DNA of 64,000 nt from Nibricoccus aquaticus (GTDB taxonomy: Bacteria; Verrucomicrobiota; Verrucomicrobiia; Opitutales; Opitutaceae), in the NCBI RefSeq assembly GCF_002310495.1, contig NZ_CP023344.1, positions 2,683,501 to 2,747,500 of the forward strand. The letters are read 5' to 3'. Under the pieces are notes generated by a model that saw only the letters and a program-made list of their open reading frames with translations, was not told where the DNA came from and made no database searches. Positions 2,771-7,815 of this stretch are shown here, in pieces (the first letter of the stretch is position 1; each line of letters opens with the position of its first letter). Made by a program: the position numbers and the translations under genes.

Positions 2771-2899
2771 GGGGCGGGGACGGAAGAGAGAGGGTAGAGA
2801 ATAGAGGATAGATCGTTGAGGGACGGAGAAAGCGGGGCGGTGCGGAAAACAGAGTTGATTCGGCTGGGAGCGCCCGCCACGTTCCCCGGCTCAGTTTGG

Positions 2900-2976
<77 letters not shown>

Positions 2977-3220
2977 TTTCAAAGGGAAGGCGGGATAAAG
3001 GGAGATGGCGGCGACGAAATTGGCAGTTTTCTGGAACGGAGCGTTCTGTCAGGCACCATCAGAAGCGCTGGCTGGAATCTCAGTAGAAAAGACCAATGCA
3101 AAAAGTCCGCCTAGACTTCACGGTGATACAGTTTCAAAACAGTGACCGCCGTTGCACCCCAAATTCCGAGGTCACAACCCATATCCCTTGCTGTGTCCCC
3201 GGCCCGAAACTTTTATCCCC

Positions 3221-3754
3221 ATGAACGAGAATTCTACCCCTCGACTAGATATTGCAAAAGCCTCCCATGGATTTGGCGGAGGAGGAGGAACACTGTTAGT
3301 GGTTCAGATCGAACGATTTTCTGCTGTGCACGTTCTCTGGCTTTTCACTCAACCGGTTCCTTTCAGTTTCCACGCCCAAGGTCGGATGAGATTTCCGACT
3401 GCGAAGGAATTAGAAGAAAAGGGGGTGGAGGGAAAGCTAGCACCTACACCTGAAATGATATGTGCGGAAGCTGTTACCCAAGCACAGTCCGCCATTGCTA
3501 ATCATGTTTTGAGCAAGGCTGATCAGGCTTTTAAGGACTATCTGTCTGTTAGGAATGCGCCGCAGTTTGAGTTCGAAAGACCAGACGACGTAGATCGTTG
3601 TTTCTTCAACTTTATCCTGAGAGCTGACCATGAGCAGCTCGGAAAAGTAGAGTCGATGCTCTCTGGTGGTAATCTCCTTTCTGCATTGATCACGAAGTAC
3701 CGAGTTTACGCCGCTGTTAGTGAGAAATTTCTCAATGAGGGAGGATCGCAATGA
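3221..3754 (+). CDS. Hypothetical protein in tRNA-adjacent island
   Basis: I do not recognise a family. From the ATG at 3221 (leader ttttatcccc, like several starts here) it would encode 177 residues. A later ATG at 3386 would give 122 residues and keeps the part that looks most like protein, from MRFPTAKELEEKG onward. The C-terminal part is soluble and helical-looking (DQAFKDYLSVRN, NFILRADHEQLGKVESML). No signal peptide or membrane segment follows the 3386 start. Base composition is clearly more AT-rich than the flanking genes, which suggests acquired DNA. The start is uncertain. Confidence 0.55.
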   Translation: MNENSTPRLDIAKASHGFGGGGGTLLVVQIERFSAVHVLWLFTQPVPFSFHAQGRMRFPTAKELEEKGVEGKLAPTPEMICAEAVTQAQSAIANHVLSKADQAFKDYLSVRNAPQFEFERPDDVDRCFFNFILRADHEQLGKVESMLSGGNLLSALITKYRVYAAVSEKFLNEGGSQ

Positions 3755-3802
3755 GGTCCGGCGTTTGCGGAATTGAGGCGGGATCAAACGGGCCAGTCGG
3801 GG

Positions 3803-3825
3803 GCCAAAAGGGTCAGACCTGATGG
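3803..3825 (+). repeat. TCAGACCTGA direct repeat, copy 1
   Basis: The segment starting gccaaaagggtcagacctga is a near copy of 4410-4432, and the two bracket the membrane-protein gene at 3845. The core TCAGACCTGA is itself a small palindrome (TCAG..CTGA). Confidence 0.5.
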
Positions 3826-3844
3826 CTGCGACAACTTTGTCGAA

Positions 3845-4429
3845 ATGAACTTTAAAACAGCCTCATTTATTGCAGCGGCAGTTTTTATTCTCTGGGTGTT
3901 GATTGGCCTGCTGCCGCTCTTGCTGTTCGATAATCCCACAGAAAGAGGAACGTTTGGGGACATGTTTGGAATGGCCAACGCCCTTTTCTCAGGTCTCGCG
4001 CTTGCTGGAGTAGTATGTGCCATTTTATTACAACGCGAAGAGCTGTCCCTCCAACGTAGGGAGCTCGAACTCACCCGTGATGAGCTGAGGAAGACCTCAG
4101 AAGCGCAAACGAGCTCAGCCAACAGCTTGATCGAGCAGCAAAAGCTAGGAGAGCGAAACGCTCAGATCCTAGCATACACGGCTTTACTACAATCCTATGA
4201 TCAACGGATCAGCGCCGAGAAATCGAAAGCGGACAGTAATCGAGCCAGAGGTATTCTCTACATGCTCGGATCTAAGTCCCTTTCAAAAGAACGAGATTCC
4301 TTAGAGCAAAAATTGAGAGAACTCATCGGTGGAAATCGTTTACCTGCGCAATGCACGGAAAACCTCGATTCGGCTACGGTAGCTCAAGGCGGCAGCAATG
4401 AAGATACCGGCCAAAGAAATCAGACCTGA
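3845..4429 (+). CDS. Two-helix membrane protein with coiled coil
   Basis: 194 residues. Two membrane helices lie at about residues 6-27 and 42-60, joined by a loop containing GTFGDMFGMANALFSGLA. A long charged coiled coil follows (LQREELSLQRRELELTRDEL). From memory, this TM-loop-TM plus coiled-coil arrangement with a GxFGDxFG loop resembles proteins annotated as putative phage abortive infection (putAbiC-like) and many uncharacterised relatives. That is a resemblance, not a demonstrated function. The ATG at 3845 puts the first helix at the N-terminus. The gene is AT-richer than its surroundings and lies between two near-identical short repeats. Confidence 0.65.
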   Translation: MNFKTASFIAAAVFILWVLIGLLPLLLFDNPTERGTFGDMFGMANALFSGLALAGVVCAILLQREELSLQRRELELTRDELRKTSEAQTSSANSLIEQQKLGERNAQILAYTALLQSYDQRISAEKSKADSNRARGILYMLGSKSLSKERDSLEQKLRELIGGNRLPAQCTENLDSATVAQGGSNEDTGQRNQT

Positions 4430-4432
4430 GTG
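4410..4432 (+). repeat. TCAGACCTGA direct repeat, copy 2
   Basis: Near copy of 3803-3825; it overlaps the stop codon of the preceding gene (TGA 4427-4429). Marks the right edge of a possible one-gene unit. Confidence 0.5.
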
Positions 4433-4490
4433 TTCGTGCGCCGCTGAATCATCTCACCTGCTGCATTGTCAGAGGCACCCCTCTTAACCC

Positions 4491-4808
4491 ATGACGCTAA
4501 AGTTTTCGCTCCGATGGATTTTCAATACGCGTATGCTTTTAGGGGCGTTGATTGGATGCGGGCTCTTTGCCTCCATCAACTCTCTACGTGATGCGAAATA
4601 CCATTCCGGTCCCGGCTACGTCACATACGGTGACGGAGATCGTTACCCGGAGCGTGAAGAGTGGGTCAGTGAATCCAAATACAAGAAACACCGCACAGAT
4701 TATGCGTGGTTCGGAATTATATTTTGCATCACAGCGTGGCTTTTAGCAGCGCACAACGCCCGTTTGGAAGATGCCGAAGCAGCAAAAAATAGGCCTGATA
4801 TGTCTTAA
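4491..4808 (+). CDS. Small two-helix membrane protein, unknown
   Basis: 105 residues. A hydrophobic stretch near residues 14-28 (MLLGALIGCGLFASI) and another near 72-87 (AWFGIIFCITAWLLAA) flank a hydrophilic loop with charged and aromatic residues, suggesting two membrane passes. No family recognised. The leader ctcttaaccc directly precedes the ATG. Composition matches the two preceding island genes rather than the GC-rich chromosome, so it was probably acquired with them. Confidence 0.6.
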   Translation: MTLKFSLRWIFNTRMLLGALIGCGLFASINSLRDAKYHSGPGYVTYGDGDRYPEREEWVSESKYKKHRTDYAWFGIIFCITAWLLAAHNARLEDAEAAKNRPDMS

Positions 4809-4973
4809 AAACCGCCTGCAGTTTCCCCTGATGGGAGCGACAATTTCACGACCGACACTTCTGAGTGCTGGCTCGTATTATCGCTACGATTTGAATGTGG
4901 CCGAAGCGTTTTTTGTTTCACGGGCGAGCGGTTGCGGAAATGGAGAGGTGGGTTTGGGTTTCGGCTTTCACGC

Positions 4974-5930
4974 ATGAACACGCGCCAGACTTCTTCGATG
5001 AGCCGACGGGAGTCGTTGCGGTTGCTGGGGGTGGGGTCGGTGGCGTTGGCGGCGGGGACGGTTTCCAGTTTGGGCGGCGCGGAGGAAATAAAGGCGTCGG
5101 AGAAAATTCTCACGCGGACGATTCCGTCGTCGGGCGAAGCGGTGCCGGTGATCGGGCTGGGGACGTGGCAGACGTTTGATGTGGGGGCTTCGGAGGCGGA
5201 GCGTGCGCCGCTCGCGGAGGTGCTTGCGGCGTTTGCCGGGTTGGGCGGGCGGGTCGTCGATTCGTCGCCGATGTATGGGCGGTCGGAGGAGGTGTTGGGC
5301 GATCTGGCGGCGCGGGTGGGTGTGCAGGAGAAGCTTTTTGTAGCGACGAAGGTGTGGACACAGGGGCGGCAGGCGGGCGTGGAGCAGATGGAGGAGTCGA
5401 TGCGGCGGTTGCGGCGGACGCGCGTGGACTTGATACAGGTGCATAATCTCGTCGATGCGGAGGCGCATCTGGAGACGTTGCGCGTGTGGAAGGCGGCCGG
5501 GCGGGTGCGGTATCTCGGGCTCACGCACTACACGACGGGCGGGCAGGCGGAGCTGGCGCGGTGGCTCGAGAAAACGCCGGTGGATTTTATCCAGATCAAC
5601 TACTCGGCCGGCGAACGGGAGGCGGAGCGGCGGTTGTTGCCTCTGGCGCGCGAGCGGGGTGTGGCGGTGATCGCGAACCGGCCGTTTTCGCAAGGGGCGT
5701 TGCTGGGGCGGTTGCGCGCGCGGGCGTTGCCTGGCTGGGCGGCGGAGATCGGGTGCGAGAGCTGGGCGCAGGTGCTTTTGAAGTTCATCGTGGGGCATCC
5801 GGCGATCACGTGCGCGATCCCGGCGACGTCGAAGGTGGCGCATTTGCGCGATAACATGCAGGCGGCGTACGGGGCGCTGCCGGATGAGGCGCTGCGGGAG
5901 CGGATCGCGAAGGAAGTGGCGGGCGTGTGA
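4974..5930 (+). CDS. Tat-exported aldo/keto reductase
   Basis: 318 residues from the ATG at 4974; alternative ATGs exist at 4932 and 4998. A twin-arginine signal (SRRESLRLLG, then a hydrophobic stretch) indicates folded export, unusual for a nicotinamide enzyme. The aldo/keto reductase barrel shows the catalytic set: Asp and Tyr in VVDSSPMYGR, Lys in VATKVW and His in LIQVHN. GLGTWQTF begins the barrel. The substrate is unknown; related exported reductases are found among verrucomicrobial carbohydrate genes. The gene stands alone, with strongly G-ending codons. Confidence 0.82.
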   Translation: MNTRQTSSMSRRESLRLLGVGSVALAAGTVSSLGGAEEIKASEKILTRTIPSSGEAVPVIGLGTWQTFDVGASEAERAPLAEVLAAFAGLGGRVVDSSPMYGRSEEVLGDLAARVGVQEKLFVATKVWTQGRQAGVEQMEESMRRLRRTRVDLIQVHNLVDAEAHLETLRVWKAAGRVRYLGLTHYTTGGQAELARWLEKTPVDFIQINYSAGEREAERRLLPLARERGVAVIANRPFSQGALLGRLRARALPGWAAEIGCESWAQVLLKFIVGHPAITCAIPATSKVAHLRDNMQAAYGALPDEALRERIAKEVAGV

Positions 5931-6250
5931 GCGGGAGGCTGGGGCGAGCGGACGTGAACGAGGCGAAGTCGGAGGGTTACACAGAGGGCACGGAGGAAGA
6001 CCGGAGGGCGGGGAGGCGTGCTGGTGGAGCTGGGGTCGTTTCGGCTGAGAGTGGTGTGGGCCAGCGAGGGGATTTTAGACCCAAGACTGTGTCTCTCCTG
6101 ACTCGGTGAGTATTCAGTGCGCTCTGTATAGCGGCTTTGATGTGGGGTGTTTTGGCGGGGATATTGGGCGGCAGAAGCCGAGAAAGAGAAGAAAAGTGGG
6201 CAAGAATCGAGAAATGGAAATACGGCTTAATTATCTGTTTTTGAGCATTA
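5931..6250. other. Intergenic stretch without a recognised gene
   Basis: About 320 bp after the aldo/keto reductase. It begins G-rich and becomes AT-rich towards 6200. No credible coding frame, tRNA or terminator was seen; the right end probably belongs to the promoter region of the 24-residue peptide gene. Confidence 0.6.
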
Positions 6251-6265
6251 TCCGTTATTAACGGA
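6251..6265. promoter_or_regulatory. Palindrome upstream of the small peptide gene
   Basis: TCCGTTATTAACGGA is a perfect 7 bp inverted repeat around one central base, in an AT-rich stretch 147 bp before the 24-residue peptide start. It has the form of a dimer-bound operator. No convincing -35/-10 pair could be assigned by eye. Confidence 0.45.
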
Positions 6266-6411
6266 CACGAGGCTGAAACTTTTGCTCGAAATAAGGGTAA
6301 TACCGGGTATCACTCTCTCAGTTCTTTCTCACTTCCGTCATCATCCGATGGCGGTTCTGAACAGCCGAAGTTGGTAGTCGACGGAGGCCCAAACAATAGG
6401 AGGCACTTAAC

Positions 6412-6486
6412 ATGCTCGCCTTTGTAATCGGTGCGTTTCTGGTGCTCGGACTTCTTGAGATGGTCCGGGTCGCCTATAAAGCGTAA
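6412..6486 (+). CDS. 24-residue single-helix membrane peptide
   Basis: The ATG at 6412 is preceded by a strong Shine-Dalgarno (AGGAGG, 8 bases upstream). The frame encodes 24 residues, MLAFVIGAFLVLGLLEMVRV then AYKA, and stops at TAA 6484-6486. It is one hydrophobic helix with a glutamate near its C-terminal end and a basic tail, so it should insert in the inner membrane. An excellent intrinsic terminator lies 30 bp downstream, making this a self-contained transcription unit. The architecture resembles small accessory subunits such as KdpF or CydX in size only; I see no family match. Too short for ordinary gene callers. Confidence 0.72.
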   Translation: MLAFVIGAFLVLGLLEMVRVAYKA

Positions 6487-6515
6487 CCACTAAATAAATA
6501 AGCAAGTAATACACG

Positions 6516-6552
6516 CCCCGGCCGGGTTTTCCTGGCCGGGGTTTTACTTTTT
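6516..6552 (+). terminator. Strong intrinsic terminator
   Basis: GC-rich hairpin 6516-6526 with 6531-6541 (11 bp stem with one G.T, TTTT loop), followed by TTTTACTTTTT. Terminates the 24-residue peptide transcript. Confidence 0.93.
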
Positions 6553-6587
6553 GGGGGTGTGGAAAGCGGGAGGCGGGCGGAGATGGC

Positions 6588-6622
6588 GGATTTGAATGTG
6601 GAAATCAGGAAGGCGGGAAACG
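6588..6622. repeat. TGGAA-type degenerate repeat, copy 1
   Basis: Degenerate short-period sequence (tttgaatgtgg aaatcagg aaggcggg) also present at 10377-10413 and 12742-12778, always in spacers around the sugar operon. Confidence 0.45.
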
Positions 6623-6695
6623 GAGGGGATGAGGAGATCGAACGTGATCAGAGGGGAGGCGGAGGCGCTTTGGGTGAATTCACGCAGGGCGTCAG

Positions 6696-6839
6696 CTCGT
6701 GTGAGGCCTTCTGGGATTTGACGCGCAACGGCCTCACACGAGGTGAGGCCCTACACCGGAGGGTTTTCGCGGTGGACGACACGGAGGTCGTTCCTCCAAG
6801 GGGAACGGAAGGGACTCGGATGCCGACGGAGAGGTCGGC
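6696..6839. repeat. Cluster of four palindromes between convergent units
   Basis: Four hairpins lie side by side. (i) 6696-6708 pairs perfectly with 6730-6742 (13 bp, 21 nt loop). (ii) 6730-6737 pairs with 6743-6750. (iii) GGAGG/CCTCC at 6783-6797. (iv) GCCGAC/GTCGGC at 6822-6839. Hairpins i and ii share an arm and exclude each other. The cluster sits just past the stop of the minus-strand permease gene and may end or protect that transcript. It lacks a T tract. Confidence 0.65.
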
Positions 6840-6849
6840 ACTCCCGGGG

Positions 6850-7815
6850 TTACGAGCGGGTCTTGCGGCGGAACTGGTCGAGGGTGACGGCGGCGATGAT
6901 GATGACGCCGGTGACGATTTCCTGGATCCAGTTGGAGAGGCCGAGTTTGTTACAGCCGTTGTTCACGACGGTCATGATGAGCGCGCCGATGATGGTGCCG
7001 AGGATCGTGCCGGAGCCGCCCGCGAGGCTGGCGCCGCCGATGACGACGGCGGCGATGATGTTGAGCTCGAGGCCGACGGCGGTGGTGGGGTCGCCGCCGG
7101 TGAGGTAGGCGAATTGGAGCAGGCCGGAGAGTCCGGCGAAGGCGCCGCCGGCGATGTAGATGTAGAGCTTGGTGCGTTCGACGCGGATGCCGCAGAGGCG
7201 GGCGGTGGCTTCGCTGGAGCCGATGGCGAAGATGTGGCGGCCGAATTTCGTGTATCGGAGCATCAACGACGCGAGGACGGCGAGACCGAGCATGAGCCAG
7301 ACGCCGGAGGGCAGGCCGTTGGGGCGGAGCTGCATGAGGCTGTTGATCCAGGTTTCGTCGGGCGGGTAGACGGGCTGCTCGTCGGCGAGGCCTTTGGCGG
7401 CGCCGCGAAGAACGAGCATCATGCCGAGGGTGACGATGAAGGGCATGAGCTTGAGGCGCGTGATGAGCGTGCTCGTGACGAGTCCGGCGAGGGCGCCGAC
7501 GCCGACTCCGGCCATGGCAGCGGCGAGCGGGGGCCAGCCTTCCTGGAGGAGGAGGGCGATGACAACAGAGGAGAGCGCGATGAGAGAGCCGAAGGAGAGA
7601 TCAACGCCGCCGGAGATGATGATCATCGTCATGCCGATCGCGCCGACGCCGATGACGGCGGTTTGCTGGAGCATGATCGAGGTGTTGCTCCACGAGACGA
7701 AGTGCTCGAAGGCGAGCGAGGCGAAGAGCGTGTAGACCGCGACGAGGCCGAGGAACGGGCCGGCTTTGATGAGCCAGCGGCGCAGGTCGAAGGAGGAAGG
7801 GGAATCAGCGGACAT
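6850..7815 (-). CDS. Sugar ABC transporter permease (RbsC/XylH type)
   Basis: 321 residues with about eight to ten membrane helices. It forms the inner-membrane channel of a pentose/hexose importer of the ribose/galactose class. Characteristic stretches are TMIIISGGVDLSFGS and AVVIGGASLAGGSG. It is the last gene of a minus-strand operon with the binding protein (9425) and ATPase (7826), starting 10 bp after the ATPase stop. The importer specificity cannot be read from sequence; context with L-galactose-type enzymes suggests an L-galactose or L-fucose-like sugar. Confidence 0.93.
   Translation of the reverse strand: MSADSPSSFDLRRWLIKAGPFLGLVAVYTLFASLAFEHFVSWSNTSIMLQQTAVIGVGAIGMTMIIISGGVDLSFGSLIALSSVVIALLLQEGWPPLAAAMAGVGVGALAGLVTSTLITRLKLMPFIVTLGMMLVLRGAAKGLADEQPVYPPDETWINSLMQLRPNGLPSGVWLMLGLAVLASLMLRYTKFGRHIFAIGSSEATARLCGIRVERTKLYIYIAGGAFAGLSGLLQFAYLTGGDPTTAVGLELNIIAAVVIGGASLAGGSGTILGTIIGALIMTVVNNGCNKLGLSNWIQEIVTGVIIIAAVTLDQFRRKTRS

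Follow-up and report, generated by a model that had tools for sequence, protein, structure and literature searches.

A putative free-standing gene for a 24-residue membrane microprotein in Nibricoccus aquaticus and its probable, though divergent, membership in an Opitutaceae family without a name

Introduction

The bacterial small membrane proteins AcrZ, MgtS, KdpF and CydX bind larger membrane proteins. Other short hydrophobic peptides produced from transcripts of their own, namely, DinQ and TimP, are described as type I toxins. In yet another setting, HNH genes are reported to be widespread in mycobacterial tRNA array units (PMC5966550), a paper whose main text lacks the terms "peptide" and "small protein".

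Here, a short unit in Nibricoccus aquaticus, contained within an analysed stretch of 64,000 nucleotides (the window), is compared with these systems and with a family of short genes in Opitutaceae. The predicted product is of the same size as AcrZ, MgtS, KdpF and CydX and likewise comprises a single helix, such that a docking role would fit; unlike those proteins, it found no match at E ≤ 10 in Pfam, NCBIfam or PDB, searches in which so short a query has little power, and its gene does not lie beside membrane-complex genes that it could serve, with the exception of an ABC sugar-type transporter encoded on the opposite strand. A short hydrophobic peptide and a predicted transcript of its own are shared with DinQ and TimP, whereas no antisense partner of the window gene was identified in a promoter scan of positions 5900-6900. 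In a manner recalling the mycobacterial arrays (PMC5966550), eight of 11 units in one group of the Opitutaceae family (group B) lie in or beside tRNA-gene clusters, and an HNH endonuclease gene was recognized with Pfam beside the cluster in one longer stretch (L307); by contrast, the window gene lies 3.4 kb from a single tRNA-Val gene, with no tRNA cluster. Finally, the window gene shares with groups A, B and g10 of the Opitutaceae family a short one-helix peptide, a Shine-Dalgarno sequence, a free-standing placing, a hairpin in the leader (groups B and g10) and a hairpin or terminator after the stop codon, yet differs in encoding only 24 residues, in lacking the tryptophan and D-Y-R residues typical of the family, in bearing a glutamate in the helix, in escaping the family profiles and in lying outside a tRNA cluster.

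Results

The elements of the unit and the loci with which it was compared are listed in Table 1. The palindrome, the AGGAGG, the 24-codon frame and the hairpin with its T tail that a first-pass annotation had described were all found where it had placed them, with the hairpin comprising 12 pairs.

Table 1. Coordinates of features in the window and composition of the Opitutaceae locus groups.
Feature	Position	Strand	Basis
Palindrome TCCGTTATTAACGGA, 15 bases, in AT-rich surroundings	6251-6265		Sequence
Upstream leader hairpin CCGTCATC-ATCC-GATGGCGG, 8 pairs	6335-6354	+	Alternative two-hairpin fold, not minimum-energy
Leader hairpin GCC-GAA-helix-loop-helix-GGA-GGC, common to groups B and g10	6364-6388	+	Descriptor match, leader scores, fold
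Shine-Dalgarno sequence AGGAGG, 8 nt 5' of the ATG at 6412	6398-6403	+	Sequence
ORF for predicted single-helix membrane peptide MLAFVIGAFLVLGLLEMVRVAYKA, 24 codons and stop (TAA, 6484-6486)	6412-6486	+	ORF scan, comparison with relatives
Intrinsic terminator: hairpin 6515-6542 (12 pairs, 10 G-C), then TTTACTTTTT, T-rich tail	6515-6552	+	Terminator scan
Aldo/keto reductase gene	4974-5930	+	
ABC transporter permease gene	6850-7815	-	Pfam
tRNA-Val(CAC) gene	2900-2976		
Group A: 12 g37 loci L228-L239, and L250, L251, L252, L253, L254, L282			Profile searches, context
Group B: L270, L272, L273, L274, L275, L277, L278, L279, L281, L285, L290			Profile searches, context
Group g10: L280, L284, L291			Profile searches, context
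Related outliers: L286, L303			Profile searches, context
Loci associated with tRNA clusters: L270, L273, L274, L275, L277, L278, L279, L285, L286; longer stretches L305-L309, L313			

The unit is flanked by the aldo/keto reductase and ABC transporter permease genes. As the genes that come next downstream in a crude gene map all lie on the opposite strand up to 12.7 kb, the ORF is unlikely to encode a leader peptide serving a following gene. The terminator was reported by the scan on the forward strand only, while the promoter scan described above, a weak test, found no sigma-70-type promoter near the unit on either strand. In the A-rich sequence at 6484-6501, the stop codon is followed by four in-frame codons and a second TAA, which would give the length seen in relatives and which may reflect chance.

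The palindrome, although present upstream as the first-pass annotation had it, does not appear at the matching place in aligned relatives from g37, a different genus of Opitutaceae, and may lie outside the transcription unit. Its core (CCGTTA..TAACGG) occurs at one site in the 4.73-Mb genome, with no regulon; it is possible that it acts as an operator in N. aquaticus only. Further upstream, positions 2850-4850 form a stretch of low GC content (approximately 0.46-0.55, as compared with 0.63 for the whole window) that starts at the tRNA-Val(CAC) gene, contains short frames without clear identity and may be an island inserted at that gene.

The frequency with which such signals occur together was considered in a 1.6-Mb portion of the N. 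aquaticus genome, relying on a crude, self-trained gene map (1208 genes; 10-11% intergenic, i.e., 163.5 kb). Within the intergenic portion, AGGAGG was found 4-11 nt upstream of 26 starts of small ORFs (10-60 codons), a number that includes some alternative starts of one ORF. A terminator followed within 120 nt in only one instance, namely, the window ORF, which also displayed the highest hydrophobicity of the 26 over its best 17 residues (2.52; next highest, 1.57). Of 125 terminator-like intergenic sites, 102 lie within 150 nt after a gene on the same strand and 23 are orphans; among the 16 listed orphans, all of them preceded by 140 nt or more of free sequence, only the window unit includes a Shine-Dalgarno sequence matching at all six positions. 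The first-pass annotation had considered this AGGAGG to be the only textbook example before a gene, which is roughly right: the window contains 18 AGGAGG-ORF combinations, most of which we take to be shadow frames within larger genes, and AGGAGG precedes the 5'-most start in seven of 973 well-scored genes in the 1.6 Mb, given the crude choice of starts in the map. AGGAG or GGAGG precedes the 5'-most start in 32 of those 973. Strong Shine-Dalgarno sequences thus look rare in this genome. The set of signals at the window unit is beyond chance, lending support to the earlier description of a small gene that encodes a membrane peptide and stands alone, equipped with a Shine-Dalgarno sequence and a terminator, and the ORF is very probably a real gene.

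A search of Opitutaceae genomes with the 24-residue peptide, as the first-pass annotation had suggested, did not lead directly to relatives. No convincing match was obtained in 57 relatives, 252 genomes of the family, 372 genomes of the order, plasmids or phages, with N. aquaticus being the sole representative of its genus in the comparison set; the few matches outside its own genome were of E 0.26 or worse and lay inside frames of at least 137 codons. The DNA of the unit matched 46 of the 252 family genomes, its own included, at E ≤ 0.1, and matched no plasmid or phage. Twenty-nine of these DNA matches, considered as loci (L013-L041), were first taken as chance, with a local search at E 0.001 re-finding seven of the 29, all seven of which overlap stop-to-stop frames of at least 172 codons. 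A hydrophobic-phase pattern downstream of AGGAGG occurred in two of 252 genomes, one match being the window; the other was rejected, as it lies in a 113-codon frame, which we take to be TatA-like. Synteny relying on the aldo/keto reductase neighbor yielded loci in 17 of the 252 family genomes, again including its own, and these were scanned by script for a Shine-Dalgarno sequence followed by a short hydrophobic ORF. In a wider contig collection, the closest relatives of this neighbor were 65-67% identical, and no record from the same genus was evident among the best 80 of 351 relatives.

Relatives were instead reached through one of the DNA matches that had been taken for chance. This locus, L030, owed its inclusion to a weak match that covers the window terminator and turned out, upon scanning by script, to carry a g37 relative consisting of a Shine-Dalgarno sequence, a short hydrophobic ORF and a terminator. 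Its 31-residue peptide is kept in 12 of 21 g37 genomes (E ≤ 1e-3), where start, Shine-Dalgarno sequence, frame and 3' hairpin are retained jointly, the hairpin following a TAA stop. In the alignment of these sequences, the ATG is invariant and indels are in-frame, of 3 nt. In a further g37 genome (G167), the frame survives only in its C-terminal portion.

Profiles were built from the 12 g37 peptides (A2) and from 12 diverse members (A4), and each was compared with the 252 genomes. By our own count, and among the matches listed, the family comprises one-helix genes of 27-31 residues at 32 loci in 31 of the 252 genomes and in 12 genera, a count that leaves out L286, L303 and longer class C frames; many of the lower-ranked matches to either profile sit in long frames. 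A 3' hairpin is present at most of these loci. The script detected no terminator-like hairpin at L272, L273, L281 or L290; the contig ends at L290, and at L273 and L281 a GC hairpin can be seen whose T tail is poor. Residues typical of the family include a tryptophan in the helix, replaced by cysteine in L284 and L291, and D-Y-R at the helix end. The frame of the relatives is under modest purifying selection, with pN/pS values of 0.466 (12 g37 sequences), 0.502 (10 from group B) and 0.306 (three from g10).

Comparison of group A with Pfam revealed no convincing family (best E 0.053, one of 12 members), nor did comparison with NCBIfam (best E 0.13, two of 12 members) or PDB (best E 0.83), the queries in each case being short. 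The family has no name and is absent from the profile libraries searched. Likewise, no description of such a family was found, among the matches listed, in open-access literature on small proteins of Opitutaceae or Verrucomicrobia and on tRNA clusters, which is weak evidence for its novelty. The view expressed in the first-pass annotation that no family could be recognized thus holds for named families; an unnamed family does, however, exist. A group B peptide matched neither plasmids nor phages, the leader pattern gave no matches in viral contigs, and, in the 25 and 14 largest clusters, genes located up to 1.5 kb from family units were not grouped with the neighbors of the window gene.

A second class of sequences, comprising L287, L288, L289, L292, L293, L296, L299 and L301, was seen in g37 and one g63 genome. 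Here, stop-to-stop frames of 71-120 codons end in ..VSYLAVAIL..DYRQGPKNYAAR, and at most of the loci there is a terminator that reads GTGTAACAGAGGCCGG..CCGGCCTCTTTT.

That the window unit instead gives rise to a non-coding small RNA, with the ORF being incidental, is very improbable. Such an RNA would account for the transcript region folding better than shuffled sequences (z = -4.64; -2.82 without the terminator) and for the lack of a codon signal (the score of the 24 codons is -1.3, which is uninformative); the hairpin region (z = -3.59) and the opposite strand (z = -2.75) likewise fold better than shuffles. Against this stand the purifying selection on the frame in relatives, the Shine-Dalgarno sequence and ATG of the window unit being placed as they are in relatives, and the outcome of the Rfam searches: only a tRNA reached the gathering threshold in the whole window, the best match at the unit scored 23.3 bits as compared with a gathering score of 47, and no match was obtained at the 12 g37 loci. 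Indeed, the first-pass annotation had reasoned that frames lost in relatives that kept the RNA structure would point to a non-coding RNA, yet in 12 genomes frame and hairpin persist together. It is possible that the RNA plays a role besides coding.

Assignment of the window gene to groups B and g10 was considered in tests of the leader, the hairpin and the peptide. Those of the leader and hairpin were post hoc, as the resemblance had been noticed beforehand. The 62-nt window leader was compared with 2399 other candidates from its own genome (sequences upstream of genes and of intergenic small ORFs), using leader sets from which L274 was left out, since that contig starts 59 nt before the ATG. 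In mean score, the window leader ranked first in each comparison: it scored 26.2 against the 10 leaders of group B, where the runner-up had 25.9, 30.8 against the three of g10 (runner-up, 24.6) and 27.3 against the 13 together (runner-up, 22.4), with none of 148 candidates matched for Shine-Dalgarno sequence reaching its mean. In terms of best single score, three other candidates reached the level of the window leader against group B and none did so against g10. The window leader is unlike those of group A, with 141 of 2400 candidates being as good. A descriptor of the hairpin in groups B and g10, namely, GCC-RAA-helix-loop-helix-(AA or GGA)-GGC before a Shine-Dalgarno sequence, found the window leader as its single match on both strands of the 1.6 Mb. 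Markov sequence amounting to 8 Mb gave one match to the hairpin by itself and none once a Shine-Dalgarno sequence and ATG were required as well. The descriptor fits 12 of 16 family loci (all 11 of group B and L280, but not L284, L291, L286 or L303). By inspection, the inner helix of the window hairpin (GTTG/CGAC) differs from that of group B (GCTC/GAGC) on both sides in two of four pairs and on one side in another, and its lower helix has lost the outermost pair. The hairpin appears in the predicted folds of eight of 10 group B leaders and of L280; in the window leader, by contrast, the two-hairpin form (-20.3) lies 7 kcal/mol above the minimum-energy fold (-27.3), which counts against membership.

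The peptide encoded directly after the Shine-Dalgarno sequence gave a weaker signal. In comparisons with peptides from group B (10 of 11), g10 (all three) and group A (10 of 18), a mean score as high as that of the window peptide was attained against group B by 0.0006 of 3105 hydrophobic decoys from its own genome and 0.0042 of 5000 shuffles, and against g10 by 0.0032 and 0.0050, respectively; with mean or best scores, the fractions ranged from 0.0006 to 0.011. Against group A, 0.26 of decoys were as good.

It would also be conceivable that the window ORF is a real gene unrelated to the Opitutaceae family, its leader resembling those of groups B and g10 by convergence or chance. Consistent with such a reading, no unbiased search recovers the window gene. 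Profile A4 had no match in its own genome at E ≤ 10, the best match of profile A2 in that genome (E 0.35) lies inside an 889-codon frame elsewhere than the window gene, and nhmmer searches with the family unit, leader or 3' part did not return the window. Covariance model R2 failed to find the window unit either in the 1.6 Mb or in the window with filters off; as it also misses all three g10 loci, this model is narrow, and its five matches in the genome lie in, or in our reading resemble, coding sequence. Although a hairpin follows the stop codon in both window and family, the 3' sequence was not recovered by the family 3' model, and a likeness to L250 in this region (TAAGCAAG...) that is good by eye was borne out by no model. 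Nonetheless, the ORF had been named ahead of any leader comparison, and it is precisely this ORF that takes first rank and provides the only descriptor match, such that an unrelated gene is highly unlikely. The link between the window gene and groups B and g10 comes mainly from the leader, the fit of the peptide being weak. Judged from these sequence comparisons, it is probably a member of the family, and, should it be a real gene, membership would be very likely.

A further possibility is that the window carries a decaying, non-working copy, in which leader and Shine-Dalgarno sequence can still be recognized and conserved residues, and perhaps the C-terminal end, have been lost. In alignment by eye, F and A-Y-K occupy the places of the family tryptophan and D-Y-R, the ORF is the shortest seen (24 residues, as compared with 27-31), the family profiles do not match it and its codon usage is neutral. 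Decay would, however, not favor the intact state of the Shine-Dalgarno sequence, ATG, membrane helix and strong terminator, and this explanation is considered rather unlikely.

The leader also bears on the main rival to a docking role, namely, that the peptide is type I toxin-like or a stress peptide that damages or depolarizes the membrane and is normally held back by RNA. Its size, single helix, free-standing transcript and structured leader would all suit such a peptide, as DinQ and TimP illustrate, as would the fact that certain genomes carry two family-like genes (L276 and L285 in G003, L233 and L286 in G176, L232 and L303 in G172). On the other hand, the conserved hairpin does not include the Shine-Dalgarno sequence of the window unit, which is unpaired in minimum-energy folds of the 82-nt leader. 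Moreover, no antisense RNA gene was identified, by the promoter scan, and the tryptophan and D-Y-R conserved in relatives would suggest a specific partner. A toxin-like peptide is considered unlikely.

In considering the genomic setting of the family, ARAGORN detected 4 to 23 tRNA genes in stretches of 1.6-3.1 kb around the cluster-associated group B units, with tRNA genes found on only one side within the examined stretch at L274 and L278. Five tRNA genes lie alongside the outlier L286, while none were detected around any locus of group A (18) or g10 (three), or near L272, L281, L290 or L303. The longer stretch L305 contains 25 tRNA genes, with the unit placed between those for tRNA-Asn and tRNA-Pro. 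A gene for a LysR-type regulator is found in all six longer tRNA-cluster stretches, as confirmed by Pfam for the L307 copy, and at L290. It is found in none of four longer stretches without tRNA genes, and is absent from the window and the 1.6 Mb at E 0.001. Instead of a long T run, TTCAATTT or a similar sequence comes after the 3' hairpin in most clusters, so this hairpin may not terminate transcription there. A tRNA-Val(CAC) gene lies upstream of the unit in both the window and L307, these being two cases only. The notion that leader and location tie expression of the microprotein to tRNA supply or translational stress, with the window gene being a copy that works outside a cluster, is improbable.

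Discussion

The favored explanation, at a probability of roughly 0.45, is that a membrane microprotein of 24 residues with a single span is encoded in the window by a gene standing on its own, that this gene belongs, in diverged form, to the unnamed Opitutaceae family and that its product acts on a larger membrane protein. According to this reading, a short mRNA would start upstream of the leader hairpins and end at the terminator near position 6552, with ribosomes presumably beginning at the AGGAGG just 3' of the conserved hairpin. The peptide would then enter the inner membrane, its basic end facing the cytoplasm as the positive-inside rule predicts, and might bind to a larger membrane protein, either regulating it or serving as an accessory subunit. 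Such a role is the first choice because of the size of the peptide, its single helix, its basic end and the conserved positions in relatives; given a real gene that belongs to the family, a docking or regulatory role is reasonably likely. The helix glutamate, to which the first-pass annotation had pointed, does not serve as evidence for docking, since the relatives shown have no such residue in their helices.

Genes this short slip past gene callers, and the profile libraries searched do not include them. If the family is real, it would provide a new set of membrane microproteins for a poorly studied bacterial lineage, with the leader hairpin offering a handle for finding further members, and would present a puzzle in the form of a coding gene found among tRNA genes in several genera.
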